Shown here: piece by piece, positions 32 to 187 of the stretch
How positions within the stretch are numbered: the stretch's first letter is position 1
Layout: each line of letters opens with the position of its first letter
DNA from: a virus
Strand: one strand, 5' to 3'
IMG/VR virus record: IMGVR_UViG_3300031369_000008
Span: 1 to 26,131 of that record
DNA length: 26,131 nucleotides
Translations under genes and position numbers: made by a program
Notes under the pieces: generated by a model
Told to the model about the DNA's origin: nothing
Database searches by the model: none
The model's input: only the letters and a program-made list of their open reading frames with translations

Positions 32-187
32 AATATAACTTGAATTTTAGTAGAGGAGTTCAAGTTATATTTAAAAAAAATTATATAGTTTGGTTTGATT
101 GGCCTCCAAACCAAACTATATAAAAGAATAGTTGAGTGCAAGAGAATTCATAAATATGAGAGGCCATTGAATATTTATGAATTCTCT
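32..187 (+). promoter_or_regulatory. Three tandem hairpins forming a structured leader before the ERCC4-type gene
   Basis: Three perfect inverted repeats follow one another: 32-44 with 59-71 (13 bp), 81-97 with 107-123 (17 bp) and 141-157 with 171-187 (17 bp). The third is followed at once by five T (187-191), so on the plus strand it resembles an intrinsic terminator placed just before the next gene. On the minus strand the second is followed by eight T, so it could end transcription coming from the right. The loops of hairpins 2 and 3 are complementary over seven bases (TGGCCTC at 100-106, GAGGCCA at 160-166). No promoter is visible between hairpin 3 and the gene at 206, so a transcript from upstream would have to read through. 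Attenuator or structured RNA is inference. Confidence 0.6.

Follow-up and report, generated by a model that had tools for sequence, protein, structure and literature searches.

A conserved pair of kissing hairpins precedes different accessory genes of an uncultivated low-GC phage group

The window, i.e., the whole stretch of DNA analysed, comprised a complete virus record of 26131 b with 25.8% GC. The record begins at position 1, 31 nt before the first of three hairpins, and these are followed by a gene for an ERCC4-type nuclease (phrog_3490, E = 7.6e-29; PF02732, E = 3.2e-11). The features of this region are:

32-71, plus strand: hairpin 1, perfect, with a 13 bp stem and a loop of 14
66-71, plus strand: putative -10 box TATATT, 9 nt upstream of hairpin A, its placement matching that in relatives
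81-123, plus strand: hairpin A (the second hairpin), with a perfect 17 bp stem and the 9-nt loop ATTGGCCTC (98-106)
100-106, plus strand: kissing strand A, TGGCCTC, partner of 160-166
124-139, plus strand: linker of 16 nt (6-20 nt across the family)
140-188, plus strand: hairpin B (the third hairpin), with a perfect 18 bp stem and the 13-nt loop GAGAGGCCATTGA
158-170, plus strand: loop of hairpin B, divisible into GA, GAGGCCA and TTGA
160-166, plus strand: kissing strand B, GAGGCCA, partner of 100-106
187-195, plus strand: T-rich, terminator-like tract TTTTTGTTT, 3' of hairpin B
195-200, plus strand: Shine-Dalgarno-like TAGGAT, read from the sequence, preceding the ATG at 206
206-697, plus strand: ERCC4-type nuclease gene (163 aa), behind the leader

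Folding of the hairpin region lay 7.9 SD below that of dinucleotide shuffles. A sequence-only reading had described three tandem perfect hairpins here with stems of 13, 17 and 17 bp; all three were present and the first two lengths were correct, while the third stem has 18 bp, its arm ending at 188. The complementarity noted between the second and third loops was exact over seven bases, whereas an AGAGG said to be common to the first and third loops amounted to a weak match of 4-5 nt. As had also been stated, hairpin B runs into a T-rich tract and no promoter lies between it and the gene. Further long perfect hairpins (16-18 bp) were observed in the window at 4857-4897, 12615-12661 and 1798-1835, each without a complementary neighbour.

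DNA searches for relatives of the window produced nothing close, single-protein scans with ERCC4 or portal found zero relatives, and an exact search for the loops across viral contigs gave 0 matches. Relatives were reached through alignments of the ERCC4, portal and large-terminase proteins, and constituted one group of uncultivated low-GC phages (portal identity to the window phage was 71% for G011 and 52% for G001). The large-terminase alignment returned none at E 1e-60 from 398 Bacillota genomes, and a stems-only model, applied under stricter filters and with no positive control, gave 0 matches among 391 genomes from a single bacterial class. The ERCC4 gene closest to that of the window belonged to G011 (51% identity), and there the element was present; it was absent from the ERCC4 genes of G001 (39% identical) and G025 (38%). 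The G001 gene lay within an operon. In G025, a -10-like box and then a lone hairpin and its T tract preceded the start codon, with no partner hairpin; this attenuator-like leader, without hairpin A and with a long T tract, occupies about 1400-1490 of L209. No leader was found when ERCC4 relatives at ~30% identity were scanned, and therefore it is not a general feature of ERCC4 genes.

Kissing two-hairpin elements numbered 11, in 8 records of the one phage group, and an incomplete twelfth was found at the end of L197. When 1.4 Mb were scanned for neighbouring hairpins with complementary loops, the matches were essentially confined to this group; other phage loci, over 1 Mb, contained essentially no such pairs. 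Most elements were chosen by their loop complementarity, and only 3 are free of that bias: a stems-only covariance model (R1) identified three elements beyond its training set (L225, L232 and G029:32573), all of which kiss in the same register. Across 684 kb of other phage loci, R1 gave no match. G011 carried a further pair of hairpins with complementary loops (L114, 14600-14713); this lay within A-T repeats, departed from the geometry and was not counted. The genes behind the elements were as follows:

Window: before the ERCC4-type gene
G011, two elements: before an ERCC4 gene, and before a ParB/N6-N4 methyltransferase gene
G014: before a TnpB gene
G017: before a NucS-like nuclease gene
G024: before an AntA antirepressor gene
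G025: before a ParB/methyltransferase gene (domain name taken from the sequence rather than a profile search)
G041: before a ParB-like gene truncated at the end of its contig (domain likewise named from the sequence rather than a profile search)
G029, two elements: before a NUDIX gene, and before a 139-aa gene without an assigned function (domains again assigned from sequence rather than by profile)
G001: no closely following gene

The G017 and G024 leaders were near-identical all the way between -10 box and ATG although their genes differ (NucS-like and AntA, respectively), so leader and gene have apparently been swapped as modules.

The geometry of the element was constant. In all 11 cases loop A comprised 9 nt (2 nt plus the 7 pairing nt) and loop B 13-14 nt (2 + 7 + 4-5 nt), with stems of 16-18 bp and linkers of 6-20 nt. 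Invariant letters were U9-A31, G10-C30 and T14/G15 in stem A and A62 in loop B, while A70, 3' of the kissing strand, was nearly so. The kissing 7-mers themselves varied among elements, and yet 77 of 77 loop-loop pairs were kept (75 Watson-Crick and 2 G-U), with two-sided changes at 7/7 positions of a kissing helix that was 100% paired. Loops matched with their own partners gave 75/77 Watson-Crick pairs; 100000 permutations of the partners reached 65 at most. An alignment of 8 elements showed two-sided changes at 31/37 pairs and pairing in 99.7% of cells, against 30-44% when it was slid. The alignments used for covariation were adjusted manually to the structure; for three ParB-type orthologues, plain MAFFT aligned the leaders and the compensatory loop changes were visible. 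Predicted energies of the kissing duplexes were similar (-10.0 to -13.5 kcal/mol), and where a genome carried two elements their kissing 7-mers were orthogonal. On geometric grounds, the two stems must lie side by side if the contact is intramolecular, given the short linker and near-equal stem lengths, and the unequal 3' sides of the loops (0 nt in loop A, 4-5 nt in loop B) are consistent with stacking of the kissing helix on stem A.

The structure of the hairpin A/B pair as a conserved RNA element was well supported. Hairpins are abundant in low-GC phages, and the pair might have been a chance arrangement of tandem ordinary terminators in an A-T-rich genome. This was refuted, its probability being practically nil, since 60 shuffles of 142 kb of group DNA (8.5 Mb) contained 0 loop-complementary hairpin pairs, 0 of 6718 distant loop pairs shared 7 bp with at least 4 G-C, and the loops covary. 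The view that this was a structured leader rather than ordinary terminators was borne out by a loop complementarity kept through compensatory changes in 11 elements; the contrary outcome named beforehand, relatives lacking that complementarity or the stems, did not arise.

The stems of the 11 elements contained 359 Watson-Crick pairs, 17 G-U, 0 A-C and 2 other. Counted on the strand of the gene, 17 G-U against 0 A-C indicates selection on an RNA made in the direction of the gene, and the element always shared the strand of its downstream gene. Both observations oppose an origin at the DNA level, in operator palindromes or hairpins for replication or transposition, which the perfection of the inverted repeats and the position of one element upstream of a TnpB gene might otherwise suggest. 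The coding-strand bias leaves no both-strand symmetry, and covariation between the loops of two different repeats would be meaningless for DNA; this explanation was largely refuted and is considered very improbable.

A -10-like box occurred 7-11 nt upstream of hairpin A in 8 of 11 elements; besides that of the window, 7 of 10 elements had such boxes (TATAAT/TATCCT) at this spacing, which would place hairpin A at about +1 to +5 of the transcript. Both G029 elements had no -10 box 7-11 nt before hairpin A, and the window promoter was without a good -35. Hairpin 1 had been taken as a member of a three-hairpin leader. It overlaps the putative -10 box at 66-71, so transcription probably begins 3' of it; as part of the RNA element it was rejected, there being no counterparts in relatives. 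Hairpin 1 is a palindrome overlapping the putative promoter, probably outside the RNA element, and may be an operator. Its sole parallel upstream of a hairpin A was a promoter-spanning inverted repeat in G011. That repeat (L114, 5426-5461) straddles the -35/-10 region in the promoter of the ParB/methyltransferase gene; between its arms lies the spacer GGGAATCA, which complements the loop A sequence TGATTCCC.

A hairpin beginning at about +1 to +5 of the predicted transcript, as in 8/11 elements, and with so stable a stem, could protect the 5' end; the kissing pair would then block 5'-dependent decay (of the RNase J/RppH type) and stabilise the mRNA, the T tract being incidental. This is unlikely, as one 5' hairpin would be enough for the purpose, and neither the 7-bp loop-loop helix of fixed geometry nor the T-rich tract 3' of hairpin B in 11/11 elements would be explained. 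Within the 12 nt that follow hairpin B there were 7-10 T in every element, compared with a background of about 4; the associated chance estimate is rough, since it assumes independent positions. Hairpin B was A-T-rich and several of the T tracts were interrupted. A ribosome site and start codon followed within about 40 nt of the element in all but G001. As in an intrinsic terminator or attenuator, a stem followed by a T-rich tract stands between the putative promoter and the gene.

With a -10-like box at one end and a terminator-like structure at the other, the element might instead specify an independent small RNA, about 110 nt long, whose 3' end would lie at the T tract of hairpin B, the gene being expressed by leakage only. 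The G001 copy, having no gene close behind, would suit this; the ribosome site and start codon close behind all other copies do not, and the unrelated 7-mers carried by two elements of one genome suit pairing in cis rather than a shared target. A product of this kind seems improbable.

No alternative structure was found that could compete with hairpin B. The best pairing of the 3' arm of hairpin A plus linker with the 5' arm of hairpin B reached -5.6 kcal/mol, while hairpin B itself had -15 to -23; a classical antiterminator was rejected because this pairing is far weaker, and a classical two-state attenuator is unlikely. With no pairing able to open hairpin B, the kiss is the only route left for a switch. 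In G014, G017 and G024, complementarity of 9-11 bp was seen between the ribosome-site region and the 3' arm of hairpin A; in most other elements it was much weaker. This candidate was also rejected, having -11 to -14 kcal/mol against about -19 to -20 for hairpin A.

The reading preferred here, with a probability of roughly 0.45 for the full statement, is that 81-188 constitute a modular cis-acting 5' leader that gates accessory-gene expression at hairpin B. It draws on the hairpins, their kissing complementarity, invariant geometry, covariation and RNA strand, together with the site of the element between a gene and the usual -10-like box and its reuse before different genes. Transcription would begin from the promoter just upstream, at hairpin A or a few nt from it. 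Hairpin A would fold first, and loop B would then pair with loop A in a 7-bp kissing helix, such that the two stems lie side by side, the kissing helix stacks on stem A, and loop B uses its 4-5 extra nt for the return path. Hairpin B would act as a terminator directly upstream of the ribosome-binding site, held by kissing in a form that alters termination, and the locked pair would set the amount of transcription passing from promoter to accessory gene. The kiss could either promote or block termination; whatever factor or condition disrupted it would serve as the switch. The hairpin and T tract between the -10-like box and start of the G025 ERCC4 gene fit attenuation of this gene.

Comparison with known systems gave no match to Rfam 15 at curated thresholds, either in the window or at the elements in 7 loci, and a permissive Rfam search of window 1-260 produced matches at chance level only. 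The order of promoter, structured RNA, terminator-like hairpin with T tract, ribosome site and gene resembles that of attenuators and terminator-type riboswitch leaders; unlike these, a mutually exclusive antiterminator was not found here, the loop-loop helix is the sole link between the halves, and there is neither a known ligand domain nor an Rfam match. Purine and lysine riboswitches also contain two side-by-side stems (P2-P3) whose loops pair in cis, but here neither a ligand core nor a three- or five-way junction is present, only two free-standing 17-bp hairpins with a 6-20 nt joint. The phage immunity RNAs c4 of P1/P7 and CI of P4 are short stem-loop leaders that contain complementary parts and precede, for example, antirepressor genes, and they pair with targets elsewhere in the leader; in contrast, the loops of neighbouring hairpins pair together here, and no Rfam family reaches threshold. 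A non-exhaustive literature search, mostly of open-access papers, found no description of the element.

The nearest system in place and make-up was putL of phage HK022, a phage leader with two cis stem-loops, compared here by description. The putL and putR RNAs are cis-acting antitermination elements of two stem-loops, putL lying just downstream of a promoter, and they bind the zinc domain of the RNA polymerase beta' subunit so that distant terminators are read through (PMC9378689). The put RNA is about 70 nt with a conserved sequence and acts on distant terminators of early genes in a lambdoid phage; no 7-bp kissing helix is reported in the text consulted (PMC9378689). In the present element the loops kiss, the sequence mostly varies, and the second hairpin is terminator-like and precedes one accessory gene. 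The nascent two-hairpin RNA might nonetheless bind RNA polymerase and cause it to ignore terminators, as HK022 putRNA does; the site just after a promoter and the pair of cis-acting stem-loops agree with what is described of putL (PMC9378689), and the invariant U9-A31, G10-C30 and loop B A62 would be possible contacts. Yet put relies on specific sequences and another packing of its stems, while most stem letters here vary freely and the element's own second hairpin resembles a terminator, which makes put-like action doubtful indeed.

The kissing pair, an RNA tertiary motif with strong covariation and no Rfam match, would seem to be an as yet undescribed switch or cap at the start of accessory-gene messages. 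It shows how unrelated accessory genes may plug in behind one RNA control element. Tentatively, it might represent a new class of phage RNA, a mobile expression cassette (promoter, kissing leader and terminator-like hairpin) that gives incoming accessory genes a common, RNA-only control, each copy having a private 7-bp lock and so no cross-pairing within the genome. Being short and self-contained, with natural orthogonal variants, it offers a test bed for loop-loop contacts that set termination or mRNA stability.

Other features of these genomes were observed in passing. The window contained a TnpB-like gene on the minus strand (5081-6340), whose DNA shares 83% identity with gp662 of Bacillus phage G across 114 b. 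The large terminase gene of G025 (L217, 6550-8991) had an intein-like insertion of about 300 aa that was absent from relatives. A sequence of 29 nt that resembles a CRISPR direct repeat occurred at 24161-24189 of the window and 195-223 of L114, with 3 mismatches between the phages; the G011 copy matched Rfam CRISPR-DR14. In both phages it was solitary and followed the head gene, and such a solitary repeat unit could act as an RNA anti-CRISPR.
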